Of a DNA stretch of 64,000 nt, positions 4,359-51,377 are shown piece after piece. Location: NCBI GenBank assembly GCA_009777485.1, contig WRLT01000002.1, positions 1 to 64,000 on the forward strand, in the 5' to 3' direction. The position numbers and the translations under genes were made by a program. The notes beneath the pieces are model-generated. The model was not told the origin of the DNA, ran no database searches, and was given only the letters and a program-made list of their open reading frames with translations. Source of the DNA: Bacillota bacterium. GTDB taxonomy: Bacteria > Bacillota > Clostridia > Christensenellales > Pumilibacteraceae. The number at the start of each line of letters is the position of its first letter. Within the stretch, counting starts at the first letter, position 1.

Positions 4359-7308
4359 TATACAATTTAATTCTAATCCGTGGGCAAGCCCGTGGTGGCT
4401 GCTTGCGCTGATTCCGGCGGTGCTTTTAACGCTGATACCGTTTTTTAGAATCAAAAAACAGTACCGTTATACGCGCAACCGCGTAGTGTCGCTGATTATT
4501 CGTTCGGTCATTCTAATTCTTGCCGTACTGCTTTTATCCGGCATGACGTTTAGTTCTACCAAAGACAACCGAAAAACCGACGTAGTGATTGTTATAGACG
4601 CCTCTTATTCGGTTTCGGGCGAGGGCAGGGGAAACACGCATGCAGACGCCATAGAAAAGCTTATCGAAAATGTTATCAGACAAGGCGGCGGCGCGTACAA
4701 CATAGCCATTGTTACCTTTGGGTATACGCACCGCGTGGCTGTACCGTTCGGTACGCGCGACAGCCAAATTTTAGATAGGTACAAAAACGCGCCGCCTCCC
4801 GACGATACTACGGCTACGGATATCGGCATGGCGTTAAACGCCGCGTACAACCTGCTTCCTAATCCTAACACCGGCAGAATTATTTTAGTAAGCGACGGTT
4901 TAGAAACCGACGGCGATGCAGAGGTAGTGGCGGGCTTAATTGCGGCAAACGGCGTTAATGTAGACGTTATGCACCTTACGCCCGCATCTTTTGAAAACGA
5001 GGTTCAGCTTACTAACTTAAGCTGGCCAGATGTAGAAGAGCGCAATCAAAGAATAGAAATAGGCGTTAATACCCGCGTGCGCGTATCCATATGGCGCAGC
5101 GGTACAGACGCGCGTTCGGCAACTTTGCGTTTGTATAACGGACCAGACCTTATTACAGACGTAAACGGCAGAACCGAGCATACGCTGTTTTTAAGCGAGC
5201 CTATCACGCACGAAGAAATAACCATTCAGTTTTCGGGTTCGGGGTTACAGCGTATCATGGCGCAAATTACCCCGCACGGCGATACCATTGCGCAAAACAA
5301 CATATTTTATAGCTACGTCAACATTCAAGGCGAGGGCGCGATTTTAATATTGCAAGGCCAATCGGGGGTAATGGGCAGTAACGGCACAAGGCTGCGCAAC
5401 CTGTTAACTACCTTCGACCCCGCCACCCAACGCATTTACGAAAACGTAGACATCGAAAATATTTCTTCTTTTGCCCCTACGGCAACGCTTAGCGACTTAC
5501 AGCAGTACGAGCAAGTTATTTTAATGAACGTAGCCAATCGGGATATGCCGCCCGCATTTGTTGAGTTGTTAGATTTTTATGTGCGTCAATGCGGCGGCGG
5601 ATTGCTTACGGTAGGCGGTGCTAACGCCTACGACCAAGCCGACATGAAAGAAGACGGCGAGCCTACGCTGTTTGAGGATATGCTGCCCGTAGAGGCAGAC
5701 CCGTCCGTAGAGCCGCTTTCGCTGTTGATTGTATTTGACGCATCCACCTCTATGGCAGGCGGCGGGCAGCAAGCTGGAATCAGCCCGCGTCCCAACTTTG
5801 ATGGAACGTTGCCTTCGCGCCTTTCACACGCAAAGGACGCTATTTACGCCGCCGCCGAAGCTATGAAACCGCAGGATTACATCAGCATTGTGCGGTTTTC
5901 TAACCTTGCCGATACCAGGATTGCGTTAAACTGGACGTCCGTAACCGATAGAGAAGCTATCGAGCTTGCCGTAGACGGCGGCAGACTGCCTAACGGCCAG
6001 TTTAATCACGGAACGCTGCAAGAACAACGCGGAATTTGGACATCCGTGGGCACGGCTTATAACCATGCAATGGTATTAGCCCAACAGCAAATGAACATCG
6101 CGCAAACTCCCCGCCGCCACATTATATTCCTTACCGACGGCGAGCCGCAGGACAATCCGCGCACGTTCCGCACCACGCTTGCCAACATTCACCGCAACGG
6201 CACGGGCCCTACACTTTCGGCTATCGGCTTTGGCGAGGTAGGGGCGGCAACCGTAGTAGACTTAGCAGCTTTAGGCGGCGGAAGGCATTATAATATATCT
6301 AACGCCGCACAGCTTAGAGACACCATGTTAGCAGAGGTTCACGCAGAAATTCCGCAGCACACGGTAGACGAAGTAACGCCTTTGGCGTTAGGCGACAATC
6401 TGTTAGCACCTATTGTATTAAGAAATATTACCCAGCTGCCCAGTGTAGGAGGCTTTTACGCCACCACGTTAAAGCAGGGCTACGAAGAAGACGGACGTTT
6501 GCCGCGCGCCCGCAATGCGGTACGAACCGCCGCACTAGGCATACCGATTTACGCCGAATGGAGTTTCGGGCTAGGCAAAGTAGGCAGCTTTATGAGTGTC
6601 TTAGACGGGTCTCACTGGGCAAGTGACGCGTATTTTACAGACGTGCAAGCCCAAACCTTTATACGCAATATTATAGACAGCCTAATGGCACCGGGCAGTA
6701 CCGATAACCCAGGGCTTTCGGTACAGTATAATCCCGAAAATCAGCAAAGCAACCGAAACTATACCACCATGATTAGCATAACGGGCAACATCGGCGACGC
6801 CTCAGACCCGATAACCGCCGCCATTGTTTCGCCCGACAGCAATGTATTGCCCCGACAGCAAATTGTACTGCAACGCGACGGCGAAGACAGAATTTCAGGC
6901 TTTTTCACCTCTACGGTTCCCGGCATTTACCGCGTCGAAATCAGTCGGGGCGGGGTAGCCGGCTTTGAAATGATAGAGTACTTCGCGTTTTCGTATTCGT
7001 CCGAATTTGACGCATGGACCAATCAAACTAAGGCAATCAGTTCTTACGACTTTATCACAGGCCTTGCCACAGGGCCAGACCCCGAAAACCCGTGGGGCGG
7101 CTTAGTGCTTACGCCCGAATCGGATATGTTCCCCCAAACGCGCGAATATATTGTAGACACCTACGACCCGCGCTTAGGGTTTTTGATAGCCGCCGTAGTG
7201 CTGTTTTTATTAGATATCGCCGCGCGCAAGTTTAAATTCAAGTGGCCGCACGAATGGACGCGCGCCGCCAGAGAACGCGCCGCCGCCAAAGAAGCAGGCA
7301 CAGGCTAA
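4345..7308 (+). CDS. Large membrane protein with two VWA domains and a glutamine-amidotransferase-like segment
   Basis: Last gene of the MoxR cluster. I place the start at GTG 4345, with GGTGGG upstream, rather than at the in-frame ATG at 4324 inside the preceding gene. Two N-terminal membrane helices are followed by a first VWA domain (motif DASYS). A Gly-rich GGGLLTVGG segment typical of the class I amidotransferase-like fold in these proteins comes next, then a second VWA domain (motif DASTS), and a C-terminal membrane helix near residue 955 followed by an Arg/Ala-rich cytosolic tail. Both metal-site motifs are complete. At about 988 residues it matches the largest VWA member of such operons. 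Confidence 0.85.
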   Translation: MSSSSIQFNSNPWASPWWLLALIPAVLLTLIPFFRIKKQYRYTRNRVVSLIIRSVILILAVLLLSGMTFSSTKDNRKTDVVIVIDASYSVSGEGRGNTHADAIEKLIENVIRQGGGAYNIAIVTFGYTHRVAVPFGTRDSQILDRYKNAPPPDDTTATDIGMALNAAYNLLPNPNTGRIILVSDGLETDGDAEVVAGLIAANGVNVDVMHLTPASFENEVQLTNLSWPDVEERNQRIEIGVNTRVRVSIWRSGTDARSATLRLYNGPDLITDVNGRTEHTLFLSEPITHEEITIQFSGSGLQRIMAQITPHGDTIAQNNIFYSYVNIQGEGAILILQGQSGVMGSNGTRLRNLLTTFDPATQRIYENVDIENISSFAPTATLSDLQQYEQVILMNVANRDMPPAFVELLDFYVRQCGGGLLTVGGANAYDQADMKEDGEPTLFEDMLPVEADPSVEPLSLLIVFDASTSMAGGGQQAGISPRPNFDGTLPSRLSHAKDAIYAAAEAMKPQDYISIVRFSNLADTRIALNWTSVTDREAIELAVDGGRLPNGQFNHGTLQEQRGIWTSVGTAYNHAMVLAQQQMNIAQTPRRHIIFLTDGEPQDNPRTFRTTLANIHRNGTGPTLSAIGFGEVGAATVVDLAALGGGRHYNISNAAQLRDTMLAEVHAEIPQHTVDEVTPLALGDNLLAPIVLRNITQLPSVGGFYATTLKQGYEEDGRLPRARNAVRTAALGIPIYAEWSFGLGKVGSFMSVLDGSHWASDAYFTDVQAQTFIRNIIDSLMAPGSTDNPGLSVQYNPENQQSNRNYTTMISITGNIGDASDPITAAIVSPDSNVLPRQQIVLQRDGEDRISGFFTSTVPGIYRVEISRGGVAGFEMIEYFAFSYSSEFDAWTNQTKAISSYDFITGLATGPDPENPWGGLVLTPESDMFPQTREYIVDTYDPRLGFLIAAVVLFLLDIAARKFKFKWPHEWTRAARERAAAKEAGTG

Positions 7309-21791: not shown

Positions 21792-21924
21792 TTGACTTTT
21801 AACAAGTAAGGGTGTATACTAATAGTGTGGTAAGCGAAAGCTTGCTGCGGAGCGTGGCAACGCGCTGGCCTGTTTTCTTCGCACTTAGCGAGGTCGCCCC
21901 CTGTTTTAAGCAGGGGGCTTTTTT
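21792..21924 (+). ncRNA. Candidate small RNA 2, copy 1
   Basis: Promoter TTGACT at 21792-21797, 17 bases, TATACT at 21815-21820. The RNA (from about 21827) folds into GTAAGC-GAAA-GCTTGC, GCGT-GGCA-ACGC, CTTCGC/GCGAGG and a strong terminator GCCCCCTG/CAGGGGGC plus six T (21896-21924). It is almost identical to the copy at 45908-46039, which precedes a ToxN-like ORF. Here the ORF that follows is cut to 12 codons. Confidence 0.7.
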
Positions 21925-21963
21925 ATGATTAAATTTTGTCTTAAAGACAGTAACCTAAGTTAA
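21925..21963 (+). pseudogene. Truncated start of the ToxN-like ORF
   Basis: ATG directly after the T run opens the same first codons (MIKF) as the ORF at 46040 and then stops after 12 codons. The palindrome and fic promoter follow within 5 bases. It is a remnant left when the downstream part was replaced. Confidence 0.55.
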
Positions 21964-22024: not shown

Positions 22025-22885
22025 ATGTCGCAGCAAAGTTGGCAGGAAAACTACGCAGATATTCTAAAAAAAGTCGATGCAGGTTATCGGGTTATCGGCA
22101 GTATGCGCCCAATCAGCGAGGATGTGGCGCGGGTTTTTTACGAGGAGTTTTCCATAGCGCATTGCCATAATTCAAATACGATAGAAGGCGCAACGTTTAC
22201 CTTTGACGAAACCAAACTTATTTTAAAAGAGGGCATGGTTTTTGCCGACCATTCCTTGCAAGAGCATATGGAAATACAGGGCTCTCACAGCGCGTTTTGG
22301 TTCATCTATGACAACATAAAAAATACCGAAAGCATCACAGAGGATTTTATTAAGCATATCCACGCTAAAACGCTGCCGGGAAAAAGCTACTCCGGGCAAT
22401 ACCGCGACATCAATGTATACATCGGTGATGCGTTTTCCGACAGGGTAACCTTTCAGCCGCCTCCGCCCGGTGCGGTGCCGCACAGGATGACGGAATACGT
22501 ACAAAAAATAAATGCCGATTTAAAAATCCTGCATGACTTTAAGACTGCCGAACAAAAAGATTGGAACAATTTTTTTCGCACAATGGCGGCGCACCACTGC
22601 GATTTTGAGCAAATCCACCCTTTTGTGGACGGGAACGGCCGCACGGGACGCTTACTGATGAATACGGAATTTATTAAGCTTGGTATACTGCCCATAGACA
22701 TTCGGTACGCAGAAAGAGAGCATTACTACGCCGCGCTTAAAAAATACGACCACAAGGCGCAATACAGCAACCGCAAAGAAAGTAAAACCGACGCAATGGC
22801 TAAATTATTTGCCGTTTCACAGCTAGCCAGCGTAAGTATTTGGCTTAAAATGTTTGCCTCTTACGCCGAAAGCGGCAAACAATAA
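22025..22885 (+). CDS. Fic-domain protein (AMP-transferase type), copy 1
   Basis: Fic proteins transfer AMP or a related group from a nucleotide onto a target hydroxyl. The full motif HPFVDGNGRTGR is near residue 200. An inhibitory helix motif (SNTIEG, near residue 50) sits N-terminal to the Fic core, so this is a self-inhibited class II protein and needs no separate antitoxin gene. The 286 residues end in FASYAESGKQ. The copy at 48200 is clearly related but carries a longer tail. The gene lies just outside the ICE, behind small RNA 2 and a palindromic promoter. Confidence 0.88.
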   Translation: MSQQSWQENYADILKKVDAGYRVIGSMRPISEDVARVFYEEFSIAHCHNSNTIEGATFTFDETKLILKEGMVFADHSLQEHMEIQGSHSAFWFIYDNIKNTESITEDFIKHIHAKTLPGKSYSGQYRDINVYIGDAFSDRVTFQPPPPGAVPHRMTEYVQKINADLKILHDFKTAEQKDWNNFFRTMAAHHCDFEQIHPFVDGNGRTGRLLMNTEFIKLGILPIDIRYAEREHYYAALKKYDHKAQYSNRKESKTDAMAKLFAVSQLASVSIWLKMFASYAESGKQ

Positions 22886-23019: not shown

Positions 23020-23096
23020 CGAGGTGTAGCGCAGCTTGGTAGCGCGCTTGGTTCGGGACCAAGAGGCCGCAGGTTCAAATCCTGTCACCTCGACCA
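23020..23096 (+). tRNA. tRNA-Pro (anticodon CGG)
   Basis: Acceptor arms CGAGGTG and CACCTCG pair perfectly; the anticodon stem is CTTGG/CCAAG with loop TTCGGGA (anticodon 23054-23056). The T-loop reads GGTTCAAATCC and the CCA end is encoded. It is the insertion target of the ICE; integration at its 3' part kept the gene whole. Confidence 0.97.
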
Positions 23097-23179
23097 CCGA
23101 ACCCCCAATACGGGGACGGATTAAATTGCGAATGACGTATCTGAGACGTACGTTATTTGCAATTTTTTATTTTGCGAAT
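23028..23179 (+). repeat. Left attachment repeat (attL)
   Basis: 152 bases identical to 50656-50807. The repeat covers the tRNA from its D-arm to the 3' end, the tRNA terminator and a few bases beyond. The distance between copies gives an element of 27,628 bases. Confidence 0.88.
23123..23169 (+). terminator. Terminator of tRNA-Pro(CGG)
   Basis: A 16-base stem (AAATTGCGAATGACGT with ACGTTATTTGCAATTT, two G-U pairs) runs into a T run. It is inside the att repeat, so a second copy lies at 50751-50797. Confidence 0.75.
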
Positions 23180-44769: not shown

Positions 44770-45555
44770 ATGAAAGTAATTGCATTAGTTAATCAAAAGG
44801 GCGGAGTTGCCAAAACAACTACCGCCGCGTCGCTGGCGTGGGGATTGAACCAAAAAGGCAAGCGGGTTTTGGCGGTAGATTTCGACCCGCAGGGCAACCT
44901 GTCTAGTTCGATGGGCGCAAAGCTGCCTACCACCGTGCCGAGCGCGTTTGAGTGGATAGGCTGCGACCCCAAAGCTACCGCGCCGTTCAAGGCGGTGGTG
45001 CAAAGCTGCGACGGCGTGGATTTAATCCCCGCAGATTACCGCTTAGCGCAGGCGGAGGTTTTTTTGATGCAGCGGCTTAACCGTGAACGTTTTTTAGATA
45101 AGGCTATAAACAGCCTTCCGAAGAACGTCTACGATTATGTTATCATCGACAGCCCGCCCTCACTGGGGCTGTTAACCGTTAATATCTTAACGGCAGCTGA
45201 CGAGGTGTTAATTCCGCTTAAACCCGAATGGCTGTGCTACGAGGGTGCGCGCGCGCTGATAGAAACCATACGTTCGATACGCGACGAGGTTAATCCGCGT
45301 TTGCACGTGAAAGGCTTTTTGCTTACAATGACCGACCGTCGCCGCAACGTCGAGGATATAACCGACTTAGTACGCGAGCTGGCAGACGGCATTAAAAGCA
45401 AGCTGTTTGAGCGGCAAATCCGATTAAACGTCGCTGCGGCCGACGTCGCCTCGTTTCAGCAAAGCATTTACAAATATAAGCCGCAAAGCATAGCGGCCGA
45501 GGATTACACCAGTTTCGTAGACGAATTTTTAGGAGGACAAGTATATGCCGATTAA
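44770..45555 (+). CDS. ParA/Soj-type partition ATPase
   Basis: 261 residues. Deviant Walker A KGGVAKTT near residue 11, FDPQGNLS near 39 and IDSPPSLGLLT near 128 are the standard ParA motifs. It helps keep the excised element during cell division. TAGGAG precedes the ATG. It overlaps the small partner gene by 11 bases. Confidence 0.9.
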   Translation: MKVIALVNQKGGVAKTTTAASLAWGLNQKGKRVLAVDFDPQGNLSSSMGAKLPTTVPSAFEWIGCDPKATAPFKAVVQSCDGVDLIPADYRLAQAEVFLMQRLNRERFLDKAINSLPKNVYDYVIIDSPPSLGLLTVNILTAADEVLIPLKPEWLCYEGARALIETIRSIRDEVNPRLHVKGFLLTMTDRRRNVEDITDLVRELADGIKSKLFERQIRLNVAAADVASFQQSIYKYKPQSIAAEDYTSFVDEFLGGQVYAD

Positions 45556-45814
45556 CAAAACCGCAAAGCAAATGCAAAGCGACGGCGTACTCAGAACGCT
45601 GCTTACGGCGCGCTTTGGCGAGGAGAAAAAAACACAAAAAGAAAAGGTGTTGGTAAACTTCCGCATGGATAAAGACGCGCATTCCGATTTTAAGGTGTAT
45701 TGCGACCACCTGTGCAAAAGCGATGTTAGCAAAACGCTTATCGAATTTATACAAGAAGTTTTGTACGACAACCGCGAGGAAATCGAGCGCATCAAAAAAG
45801 CGTTAAATTTGTAA
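45545..45814 (+). CDS. Small partition partner (ribbon-helix-helix type)
   Basis: 89 residues. Basic N-terminus, then LVNFRMDKDAHSDFKVYC, a typical ribbon-helix-helix strand and first helix, then a second helix. Co-translated with ParA, so it probably binds the partition site. The TAA stop codon lies within the first unit of the following TGTAAAGA palindrome. Confidence 0.75.
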   Translation: MPINKTAKQMQSDGVLRTLLTARFGEEKKTQKEKVLVNFRMDKDAHSDFKVYCDHLCKSDVSKTLIEFIQEVLYDNREEIERIKKALNL

Positions 45815-45907: not shown

Positions 45908-46039
45908 TTGACTTTTAACAGGTAATGGTGTATACTAATAGTGTGGTAAGCGAAAGCTTGCTGCGGAGCGTGGCAACGCGCTGGCCGTTTTCCTCGCACT
46001 TAGCGAGGTCGCCCCCTGTTTTAAGCAGGGGGCTTTTTT
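45908..46039 (+). ncRNA. Candidate small RNA 2, copy 2: possible RNA antitoxin
   Basis: Promoter TTGACT (45908-45913), 17 bases, TATACT (45931-45936); the RNA starts near 45943 and ends in the GCCCCCTG/CAGGGGGC terminator with six T (46011-46039). The next base begins the ATG of the ToxN-like ORF, whose only Shine-Dalgarno-like sequence (AGGGGG) is the 3' arm of the terminator. The copy at 21792 differs by one deletion and one change that turns a U-G pair into C-G in the third hairpin. The RNA has two imperfect repeats but no clean tandem array. Confidence 0.65.
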
Positions 46040-46918
46040 ATGATTAAATTTGGCTTATATACTATCAAAGAATCTGCAAAATCAAAATACATAAATATAG
46101 AACCGCAGCTTGCTTACGCAAACATTCATTTGCGACCAGCTATTTGTCTTAAAGATAAAAGAGGGCAAAACTGGCTATTGCTGGCTACAAGCTTAGACCC
46201 AAGAAAATTGAATTTTTCTAAAAAGCTAAGCAGAGTCAATGCGTTAGAAAGGAATGAAAAGAATTTAACAACAAAAGCGCAAATGCGGTTTTCTGATATT
46301 ACAGGATTGTGCAAAGACCCAAAATATGAAAGCGTCTTATATTTTAATCATGCAATTCCTGTAAAGCATCAAGATGTTAAGAAATTTAAAGTCAGAGGCA
46401 AGCATATTATCGCGCAGCTTACGCAAGAAAAACTAGCAAGCATTGAAAAAAATTTTTGTGCATATATGTCGCGTTATTACAATAACCGAGTATCGGGGTT
46501 TTTAATAAACTATCAAAATAACGGTGTAGATATATCAACTTTTCAATATAACGCAAAAGCAATGAAATTCGAGCTTTATAAAGAGCATTTTGCCGAGCTG
46601 CAAAAAAACAAGCTTATCCGGGAACGCACTGCCGAGGATAAGCATGAGCAAGCCCGTCGGAAAGAGCTTAAAAGACAAGTGCGCGATATGCTTATCGGCG
46701 AATTTGGCAAAGAACCCGGCGTAGCGGCCAAAGACGCAAAGGTGCTGGTTTCCGCCGCGCTGTATGAGTTAGAAAAGGAATCCGCCCGCATCGCGCAGCC
46801 GTCATCGGCGGCAGCCTTTGCGGCACAACCGCAAAAAACCGCCGAACCGAGCGAGAGCGCATCGGCACGGCCACAGAAAAAAACACAACAAAAAAATAAG
46901 GAGCAATTAAAACCATGA
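46040..46918 (+). CDS. ToxN-like protein (possible type III toxin) with extra tail
   Basis: 292 residues. The first about 165 resemble type III toxin endoribonucleases of the ToxN/CptN kind in pattern: a start strand (FGLYTI), an RPAICL segment, then a Gly followed by WLLLATS and a basic residue pair (PRK), later LYFNHAIPV and a helical end. In ToxN the Thr-Ser-x-Lys area after the second strand is the active site. The remaining about 125 residues are a charged, Ala-rich tail unlike that family. The start directly abuts the terminator of small RNA 2. The match is by eye and needs a profile search. Confidence 0.45.
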   Translation: MIKFGLYTIKESAKSKYINIEPQLAYANIHLRPAICLKDKRGQNWLLLATSLDPRKLNFSKKLSRVNALERNEKNLTTKAQMRFSDITGLCKDPKYESVLYFNHAIPVKHQDVKKFKVRGKHIIAQLTQEKLASIEKNFCAYMSRYYNNRVSGFLINYQNNGVDISTFQYNAKAMKFELYKEHFAELQKNKLIRERTAEDKHEQARRKELKRQVRDMLIGEFGKEPGVAAKDAKVLVSAALYELEKESARIAQPSSAAAFAAQPQKTAEPSESASARPQKKTQQKNKEQLKP

Positions 46919-47181: not shown

Positions 47182-48120
47182 ATGGCGGATAAATTTTACA
47201 ACGAATTAAAAAATAATGCGTGGGTTGTTAAAGACGACGCGGCGAAGCTTGCCGTGCTAACCGAAATCGAAAAAAACGCTGCAAAGCTGTGCGGCCGCGC
47301 CACACGCGGCATTGCCGTTGAAAGCTGTCCGGGCATTTTGGGCTATTACCATGCAGGCAAAAACAAACTTATTATCAGCAAGACCGCCCTCGAAAGCGCG
47401 GGTTCGGCAATTTGCGCGGTGTTGCACGAGGGACGGCACGCTTATCAGCATGACGTTATCAGCAAAAAGCAAGCAAACAAAAACCGCCTTGCTTGGACGA
47501 AAAACTGGAACGGTTACCTTAACCCCAACGCGCCGGGCATAAGCCAAATAGATTATTTCCTGCAACCGCTAGAAAAGGACGCATGGGAGTATAGCATAAA
47601 AAATTTAAAGAAAATTTCCGCAAAGGTTAAAGACCCGTATATTAAAAACGACTTAACGGATATTCAGCTTACGGCCGCCGCGCAGAGCATTAAAGCGCAC
47701 CGTCTTTACGGCCGCAATGCCGCGCAAATTATTCAAACCAAAATAGACCTTGCTTTTTCACAAAAGAGCGGCGGGCAAAATTCTTACCCGCACGTTGTCG
47801 AGCAGCTTAGTAAAGAAGGGTTGCACGCAGACCGTGCGATGCCGGATTATATTACGCCGGTTGCGCAGGTAGAAAAAGCTGCCGCAGCAAAAGCAAAAGA
47901 GGCAACCGCTGCTGAAAAAGAAAAAGCAGCCAAAAGAGCAGCTATCGCCCAAAAGTACGGCTTTGGCGAAAAGGCTGCGGCCGACGCGTCCAAGCGCGCA
48001 ACGCAAGCAAACAAGGGGCAATCCGATAAAACCGCCGCCCCCGACAAAGCCGCCAAACCCTCCAAAAGTGTAACCACCGTAAAGGTTTCTATAAAGTCCA
48101 ACAAAGGCGACCAAAAATAA
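47182..48120 (+). CDS. Zincin-like protein with Ala/Lys tail
   Basis: 312 residues. The core has a metallopeptidase motif HEGRH (in VLHEGRHAYQHD, near residue 83) and a downstream EKDAWEYS that could give the third metal ligand. The last about 90 residues are a coiled, Ala/Lys-rich tail. From 47951 the tail and the following palindrome are about 95% identical to the end of the next gene (fic2). The substrate is unknown; such zincins occur in conjugative elements and in toxin systems. Confidence 0.6.
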   Translation: MADKFYNELKNNAWVVKDDAAKLAVLTEIEKNAAKLCGRATRGIAVESCPGILGYYHAGKNKLIISKTALESAGSAICAVLHEGRHAYQHDVISKKQANKNRLAWTKNWNGYLNPNAPGISQIDYFLQPLEKDAWEYSIKNLKKISAKVKDPYIKNDLTDIQLTAAAQSIKAHRLYGRNAAQIIQTKIDLAFSQKSGGQNSYPHVVEQLSKEGLHADRAMPDYITPVAQVEKAAAAKAKEATAAEKEKAAKRAAIAQKYGFGEKAAADASKRATQANKGQSDKTAAPDKAAKPSKSVTTVKVSIKSNKGDQK

Positions 48121-48199: not shown

Positions 48200-49249
48200 A
48201 TGTCAAAGCCTATTGACAAGCAACAAAAATACACGGATATTTTTTCAGAAATAGATGCGGCTTTTAAAACGATGAAAGCATTACGTCCTATTTCGGATAG
48301 TGCATTAAGACGTTATCGTGAGGAATCGGATATTTTGTCATCATTTCACTCTAACGCGATTGAAGGCAATACCTTTACCTATGACGAAACACGGCTTTTA
48401 ATAAAAGACGGAGTTACGGCTACGGCGCGTTCAATGCGTGAGCATAACGATATACTCGGGCATAGCCGTGCGTATTGGAGCTTGTACGAATCTCTTAAAG
48501 TCAATGCACCCCCTAATGAAAAGTTTGTGCTTGATATTCATGCAAAAGTATTGCAGGGCGACGATTATGCGGGACGTTACCGAGATGCCCAAGTTTATAT
48601 AGGCGATGCTGTTAGCATCAAATACACTGCGCCGTCTGCCGACAAGGTGCCAAAGCTTTTGAGTGAGTACACCGCAAAGCTTATTGAGGAAATCCCTAAG
48701 AGCGTTGCGGGTATACGCGGCACCTCAAACCCAGACTGGCCAAAGCTGTTTGGGGCACTAGCCGCACACCATATTGACTTTGAACGCATTCATCCGTTTT
48801 TTGACGGGAATGGCAGAACGGGCAGGTTGCTGCTTAACTACGAATTATTGCAAATGGGTTTACCGCCGCTGAATATCACGATGAGCGACCGCGCACGGTA
48901 TAATGCAGCGTTTAGCAGCCATGACGCGAAAGTCAAATATAGTAGCCGCCCTGGCAGTCAGTATGAAGCAATGGCAAAGCTTTTTGCCGAATGTGAGCTT
49001 AGAAGCGTTCAAGGCTGGCTTAAAATGTTTGCCTCTTACGCCGAAAGCGGCAAGCATGAAGCTGCGGTAGAGCTTGCCAAAAAGTACGGCTTTGGCGAAA
49101 AGGCTGCGGCCGATGCGTCCAAGCGCGCAGCACAAGCAAACAAAGCGCAATCCGATAAAGCCGCCGCCCCCGACAAAGCCGCCAAGCCCGCCAAAAGCGT
49201 AACCACCGTAAAGGTTTCGATAAAGTCCAACAAAGGCGACCAAAAATAA
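48200..49249 (+). CDS. Fic-domain protein, copy 2, with borrowed tail
   Basis: 349 residues. Inhibitory motif SNAIEGNTF near residue 52 and Fic core HPFFDGNGRTGR near residue 200, so a class II self-inhibited enzyme like fic1. Both proteins read FASYAESGK near the end; fic1 stops one residue later, but fic2 continues for about 70 residues with the same tail as the zincin-like protein upstream. This looks like an in-frame fusion by recombination. GAGGTG precedes the start. Confidence 0.88.
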   Translation: MSKPIDKQQKYTDIFSEIDAAFKTMKALRPISDSALRRYREESDILSSFHSNAIEGNTFTYDETRLLIKDGVTATARSMREHNDILGHSRAYWSLYESLKVNAPPNEKFVLDIHAKVLQGDDYAGRYRDAQVYIGDAVSIKYTAPSADKVPKLLSEYTAKLIEEIPKSVAGIRGTSNPDWPKLFGALAAHHIDFERIHPFFDGNGRTGRLLLNYELLQMGLPPLNITMSDRARYNAAFSSHDAKVKYSSRPGSQYEAMAKLFAECELRSVQGWLKMFASYAESGKHEAAVELAKKYGFGEKAAADASKRAAQANKAQSDKAAAPDKAAKPAKSVTTVKVSIKSNKGDQK

Positions 49250-50655: not shown

Positions 50656-50807
50656 AGCGCAGCTTGGTAGCGCGCTTGGTTCGGGACCAAGAGGCCGCAG
50701 GTTCAAATCCTGTCACCTCGACCACCGAACCCCCAATACGGGGACGGATTAAATTGCGAATGACGTATCTGAGACGTACGTTATTTGCAATTTTTTATTT
50801 TGCGAAT
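50656..50807 (+). repeat. Right attachment repeat (attR) with truncated tRNA-Pro
   Basis: Exact copy of 23028-23179: tRNA from its D-arm to CCA, plus its terminator. The first 8 bases of the tRNA are missing, so no mature tRNA can form. From here on the sequence is outside the element. Confidence 0.88.
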
Positions 50808-50834: not shown

Positions 50835-50950
50835 TTGACAAAAGCCAAAGAGCGGCGTATACTAAGTATGCAAGGTTAAACTTGCATATGACCGTGGCAC
50901 GTAACCATTCGTGTCTGAGTTGGGCTCTCTGCAAAGAGAGCCTATTTTTT
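50835..50950 (+). ncRNA. Candidate small RNA 1, copy 2
   Basis: TTGACA (50835-50840), 17 bases, TATACT (50858-50863), an RNA of about 80 bases and a GGCTCTCT/AGAGAGCC terminator with T run (50923-50950). The internal hairpins match copy 1 at 21665. Terminator stem changes relative to copy 1 keep the pairing. Confidence 0.65.
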
Positions 50951-51031
50951 AAAACTTAATTGAAAATTTTTTAATAAAAGTGTGATTTTTAACAAGGCAT
51001 GAATTAACACACCTATTCTAAAACAACAATA
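50951..51031. other. Degenerate remnant of the small RNA 2 promoter
   Basis: The first about 45 bases match the stretch leading into small RNA 2 (GAAAATTTTTTAATAAAAGT, as at 45888-45907), but the -35 and -10 boxes are broken and no RNA follows. Nothing else is seen up to the tRNA promoter. Confidence 0.5.
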
Positions 51032-51139: not shown

Positions 51140-51216
51140 CTGGGTGTGGCGCAGCTCGGTAGCGCGCTTGGTTAGGGACCAAGAGGTCGCAGGTTCAAAT
51201 CCTGTCACCCAGACCA
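51140..51216 (+). tRNA. tRNA-Pro (anticodon AGG)
   Basis: Acceptor arms CTGGGTG and CACCCAG, anticodon stem CTTGG/CCAAG with loop TTAGGGA (anticodon 51174-51176), T-loop GGTTCAAATCC and encoded CCA. It is very close to the CGG gene in body and leader, so the two are recent duplicates. Confidence 0.95.
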
Positions 51217-51217
51217 A

Positions 51218-51257
51218 AGACAAAGCGGCGAAACGGAAACGTTTCGCCGCTTTGTCT
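51218..51257 (+). terminator. Terminator of tRNA-Pro(AGG)
   Basis: A perfect 17-base stem (51218-51234 with 51241-51257) and a 6-base loop directly after the tRNA. Confidence 0.75.
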
Positions 51258-51377
51258 AGCTAAATTTTTCCTGACGGAAAAGTAAAATTTGTGCTGCAAG
51301 GCACAAGTGAAATTGTCTTCGGCAATGAAATTGTGCCTTGCGGCACAGTTACGGATAGATTGAATATTCACGAAACG

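Follow-up and report, generated by a model that had tools for sequence, protein, structure and literature searches.

A putative toxin with a predicted ToxN/CptN fold behind a structured RNA without tandem repeats: a likely new branch of RNA-controlled toxin systems on a mobile element

Type III toxin-antitoxin systems have been defined by three features: a homologue of the toxin ToxN, a terminator, and an antitoxin RNA built from tandem repeats, and searches for new systems require these repeats (PMC5086642). In the ToxIN/AbiQ systems (PDB 2XD0, 4ATO, 7D8O, 4GLK), the ToxI RNA has 34-36-nt tandem repeats processed by ToxN, whereas in CptIN of Eubacterium rectale (PDB 4RMO) the antitoxin is a 45-nt pseudoknot repeated about twice in one transcript; TenpIN is the third described type III family with the same gene order (PMC5086642). 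Non-classical RNA antitoxins are known with other toxins. In C. difficile, the RCd22 RNA of about 100-130 nt contains two abiF motifs, has its own promoter and terminator, and lies just before the gene for AbiF, an Abi_2/AbiD/F protein of a different family (PMC12373285). In AvcID, which is called type III, an RNA of more than 170 nt acts on a deaminase toxin, and no terminator is predicted between the RNA and the toxin (PMC10511110). In the papers searched in this work, we found no non-classical RNA antitoxin with a ToxN-fold toxin.

Here, we describe a locus in a 64,000-nucleotide stretch of a Bacillota genome (GCA_009777485.1, contig WRLT01000002.1, positions 1 to 64,000; hereafter, the window). 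The first-pass annotation, made from the sequence alone, proposed a type III-like toxin-antitoxin module in which a promoter, a folded RNA and a terminator abut a ToxN-like ORF. All of these components are present (Table 1). The promoter TTGACT-17-TATACT matches the consensus at 10 of 12 positions and is the best promoter-like site of the region. The downstream RNA of about 97 nt comprises three hairpins and a terminator and has a folding energy of -52.1 kcal/mol, compared with -35.8 +/- 3.2 for 200 shuffled sequences, none of which was as low (z -5.1). The Shine-Dalgarno-like sequence AGGGGG is located in the 3' arm of the terminator and ends 7 nt before the ATG, and the ORF of 292 aa contains the RPAICL, WLLLATS and DPRK motifs. 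A second copy of the promoter, RNA and terminator, 97% identical, is found on the chromosome without the toxin. Two further related units of a second type, one upstream of the second copy and the other just outside attR, were not noticed in the first-pass annotation; all of these units are found by a covariance model.

Table 1. Features of the locus and its surroundings; positions are those of the window
Position	Strand	Feature
45908-45936	+	sigma-70-like promoter of the RNA
45942-46039	+	structured RNA, putative antitoxin (start approximate): hairpins 45943-45964, 45965-45986 and 45992-46008, terminator stem 46011-46033, T-run 46034-46039
46011-46039	+	intrinsic terminator; ends one base before the ATG
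46040-46918	+	ORF, putative endoribonuclease toxin; residues 1 to about 185 have the predicted ToxN/CptN/AbiQ fold, followed by a long helix and a low-complexity tail
21792-21924	+	second, chromosomal copy of promoter, RNA and terminator
21925-21963	+	remnant reading frame after the second copy: first codons of the toxin (MIKF), then unrelated sequence and a stop after 12 codons
21665-21784	+	related RNA unit of a second type (core TGTGGCACGTAACCATTCGTGTC), in tandem before the second copy
50835-50953	+	another second-type RNA unit just outside attR, followed by the decayed start of a first-type unit (about 50969-51000)
23028-23179	+	attL: 152-nt direct repeat at the 3' part of tRNA-Pro (23020-23096)
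50656-50807	+	attR: the same 152 nt
22025-22885		Fic gene following the orphan RNA
45545-45814		ParA-neighbouring ribbon-helix-helix-like protein
47182-48120 and 48200-49249		312-aa protein with an HExxH-like motif (HEGRHAYQH) and Fic protein
21968, 24056, 38500, 39075, 39856, 45819, 48143, 49272		copies of the palindrome GTAAAGA(C/T)GTCTTTAC
51140-51216		second tRNA-Pro
51257-51336		Rfam Gut-1 RNA

Single-sequence searches of the window protein in Pfam, PADLOC, NCBIfam, PDB, phages, plasmids and IMG/VR gave nothing, and a scan of genome contigs returned only a 13-residue match. Thus, we searched whole genomes and found relatives at six further loci, designated by their genomes as G007 (with an additional fragment), G021, G139, G189, G232 and G344; together with the window, these loci lie in four families of the same order. 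A further hit, in genome G011, lies in an unrelated long ORF and was rejected. The G021 and G344 genes are broken; the latter has a frameshift at a run of seven A (about 1085-1100 of sequence L035, minus strand) and a stop further on, and may be a pseudogene or partly an assembly error. No member of the family matches the curated models Pfam PF13958 (ToxN) or NCBIfam CptIN, and no Abi_2 hit was obtained at E<=10. PADLOC AbiQ hits two relatives but not the window protein; the G189 relative hits it at 2.2e-5, and all ten plasmid hits of this relative at E<=10 are annotated ToxN. The family profile also hit, at E 8e-4, a protein of genome G528 that is CptN-like by NCBIfam (E 6e-22, though below the cut-off of the model) and by PDB 4RMO (E 4e-17), and that sits behind a 48-nt tandem repeat and a terminator, i.e. 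a classical type III locus. Wider searches of the class and phylum found no further member apart from this CptN-like protein, and an IMG/VR scan with the G189 protein found nothing.

The ToxN-like pattern that the first-pass annotation had recognized by eye is supported by comparisons of profiles and of predicted structure. In hhalign comparisons, the family (seven rows) scores 62.2 against eight ToxN proteins and 69.7 against four CptN-like proteins, about three times the best of 200 column shuffles of the target (23.2 and 21.6, respectively), whereas ToxN against CptN, an accepted relationship, scores 38.4 by the same method. A first AlphaFold2 model, built from three rows, was unusable (pLDDT 43.6), but the model of residues 1-219 built from ten rows of this family only, without ToxN or CptN rows, has pLDDT 93.9 and pTM 0.82. 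The only Foldseek match of this model in the PDB under 0.001 is CptN 4RMO (1.6e-6), followed by ToxN Pa and ToxN Ec. VIA-align places all five known type III toxin structures first, CptN (Z 16.3, 149 residues, rmsd 2.3 A), AbiQ (13.7) and three ToxN chains (13.2, 13.1 and 12.2), with a gap to MazF (7.7); Kid, of the same fold group as MazF, is the known distant relative of ToxN (PMC4627078). In the alignments, R32 and T50-S51 lie at the places of ToxN Lys33 (Arg also occurs in ToxN clusters) and Thr52-Ser53 (PMC8860590). The third catalytic basic residue (Lys55 of ToxN, Arg of CptN) is not at its usual place, where the motif is T-S-L-D/N-P; K38, K79, K109 and H122 are invariant instead. Thus, the catalytic activity of the protein is inferred. 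The extra C-terminal helix and tail distinguish it from ToxN and AbiQ.

At all seven toxin loci, a promoter, a structured RNA and a terminator stand directly before the gene. A covariance model built from the two window copies and five G021 units finds the RNAs of G007 (48 bits), G189 (48 and 45), G139 (33) and the G021 toxin copy (37), none of which were used in training, whereas the different RNAs of G232 and G344 were recognized only by reading the sequence. Among 74 family genomes and 297 order genomes, every RNA-positive genome also has the toxin family. In the alignment of the RNAs, 24 of 31 pairs change on both sides and 94% of cells are paired, and neither shuffled (0/500) nor slid alignments come near; this alignment was fitted to the model and leans towards it, but an unconstrained RNAalifold fold of the same alignment finds hairpins 1, 2 and the terminator with 18 of 22 pairs compensated. 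No Rfam family matches the RNA at threshold, and the sub-threshold hits were judged to be chance. The suggestion that folding of the terminator hides the ribosome-binding site holds only for this copy and some relatives, since the G232 and G344 loci have their own Shine-Dalgarno sequence after the terminator.

The RNA is not a tandem-repeat array, as the first-pass annotation had noted. With the same TRF settings, 36-48-nt arrays are found at seven of eight known ToxN/CptN loci and at the CptN-like G528 locus, and none in the eight RNAs of this family that were tested. Repetition is observed instead at the level of whole promoter-RNA-terminator units: (i) G021 has five units plus a sixth abutting the broken toxin, (ii) G189 has a unit, 34 codons of toxin, a unit and then the full toxin, and (iii) the window has two units in tandem on the chromosome. 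The toxins decay while the RNAs stay intact (G021, G344, the second copy in the window, and the first copy in G189). The second RNA type has a 20-nt core (GGCACGTAACCATTCGTGTC) identical between two genera, at the two window sites and at about 5507-5640 of sequence L036, and was found only in genomes that also carry the toxin family (3 true sites in 327 genomes); one more core hit, in genome G266, lies in what looks like coding sequence without a promoter or terminator and was rejected. An IMG/VR scan for this RNA type found nothing.

The toxin locus lies inside an integrative and conjugative element of about 27.6 kb, bounded by direct repeats in tRNA-Pro and encoding integrases, ArdC-like, T4SS coupling and VirB4/TraG-like proteins, ParA and Fic. 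The orphan RNA copies lie outside the element and flank it. G007 carries the module in a related element at a different place relative to ParA (before ParA, but after it in the window), so the module moves as a unit. A Fic gene follows the orphan RNA on the chromosome and another lies a few genes after the toxin in the element, suggesting that the chromosomal stretch is the remnant of an older related element.

Taken together, these data make it likely that the locus is a type III-like RNA-protein toxin-antitoxin module. Its ORF is predicted to encode an RNase of the ToxN/AbiQ/CptN fold, and the inferred RNA transcript, by analogy with ToxI, CptI and AbiF RNA, probably binds and silences the toxin. 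Most transcripts would stop at the terminator and give antitoxin RNA, whereas rare read-through would give toxin mRNA, and in this copy folding would also hide the only SD-like sequence. Loss of the element or a halt of transcription would deplete the RNA first and free the stable toxin, which fits element maintenance or abortive infection. The RNA appears to be dosed by repeating whole transcription units rather than short tandem repeats in one transcript, and the orphan RNA on the chromosome could act in trans against the element's toxin. By the published definition, the locus lacks one defining feature, the tandem repeats, and it escapes the curated models; thus, although TenpN could not be compared, we place it beside ToxIN, CptIN and TenpIN as a probable fourth, non-repeat branch, with toxicity, neutralization and transcription inferred. 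Since searches for new systems require repeats, non-repeat systems with a ToxN-fold toxin would be missed. If the RNA neutralizes the toxin, the fold can be controlled by a very different RNA, which makes the co-evolution of an RNase with its inhibitor-substrate testable. The orphan copies next to the insertion site offer a direct test of RNA-based anti-addiction.

Other explanations of the locus appear unlikely. The RNA could be a cis-acting leader, a terminator-attenuator that only limits transcription of the ORF and does not bind the protein, in which case the ToxN-fold RNase would have another inhibitor or another role. The position of the terminator, which abuts the ATG and holds the SD-like sequence, and the complementarity between the promoter spacer and the 5' arm of the terminator, which looks like antiterminator logic for transcripts arriving from upstream, agree with this view. 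However, RNA units persist as intact genes without any ORF behind them (the second copy in the window and five of six G021 units), all three upstream hairpins covary, which is more than an attenuator needs, and ToxN-fold relatives are inhibited by the RNA in just this position (PMC5086642, PMC4627078). Even less likely, the RNA gene is an independent small RNA or a small mobile unit that came to lie before the toxin gene by chance or by transposition. The tandem arrays, the orphan copies and the 12-nt inverted repeats around G021 units would be in line with such an origin, but not the adjacency to the start codon at seven toxin loci in four families, the different places of the module in the element, and the restriction of RNA hits to toxin-bearing genomes.

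It is equally doubtful that the protein is a toxin delivered to recipient bacteria through the type IV machinery of the element, with its tail as the export signal and the RNA units as immunity genes of the donor and its relatives. Every full-length member has a long low-complexity tail, orphan RNAs are present on the chromosome, and two neighbouring element proteins, the Fic protein and the 312-aa HExxH-like protein, share a nearly identical C-terminal tail (KYGFGEKAAADASKRA...KSVTTVKVSIKSNKGDQK), perhaps a common export signal. The tail of the toxin, however, is not the shared tail, and known CptN-like and ToxN proteins can have tails too.

The complementarity between the promoter spacer and the 5' arm of the terminator of the same unit is seen in most units and in the core group extends over 12 nt in a G021 unit, 8 nt in G139 and the G021 toxin copy, and 7 nt in G189, but it is absent at G232 and G344. 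It is stronger within units than between units (permutation p 0.003 for 12 units and 0.0004 for eight, without control for relatedness). In six of six units folded without the 3' arm, the spacer pairs with the 5' arm, whereas in the full transcript the terminator wins in five of six. Only transcripts from upstream would contain the spacer, and this feature could be an antiterminator or a trace of an inverted-repeat mobile unit. A tentative and rather improbable extension of the fourth-branch reading is that one non-repeat multi-hairpin RNA serves as the antitoxin and is dosed by arrays of complete units, that orphan units on chromosomes give immunity against incoming elements, and that the spacer acts as an antiterminator, so that only transcripts arriving from upstream read through into the toxin.

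The palindrome listed in Table 1 occurs in eight copies, seven inside the element and one just after the orphan RNA copy, compared with 0.06 hits expected by chance, and is a possible binding site of the ribbon-helix-helix-like protein encoded next to ParA. The Gut-1 RNA (51.2 bits, cut-off 50) is located just downstream of the second tRNA-Pro.
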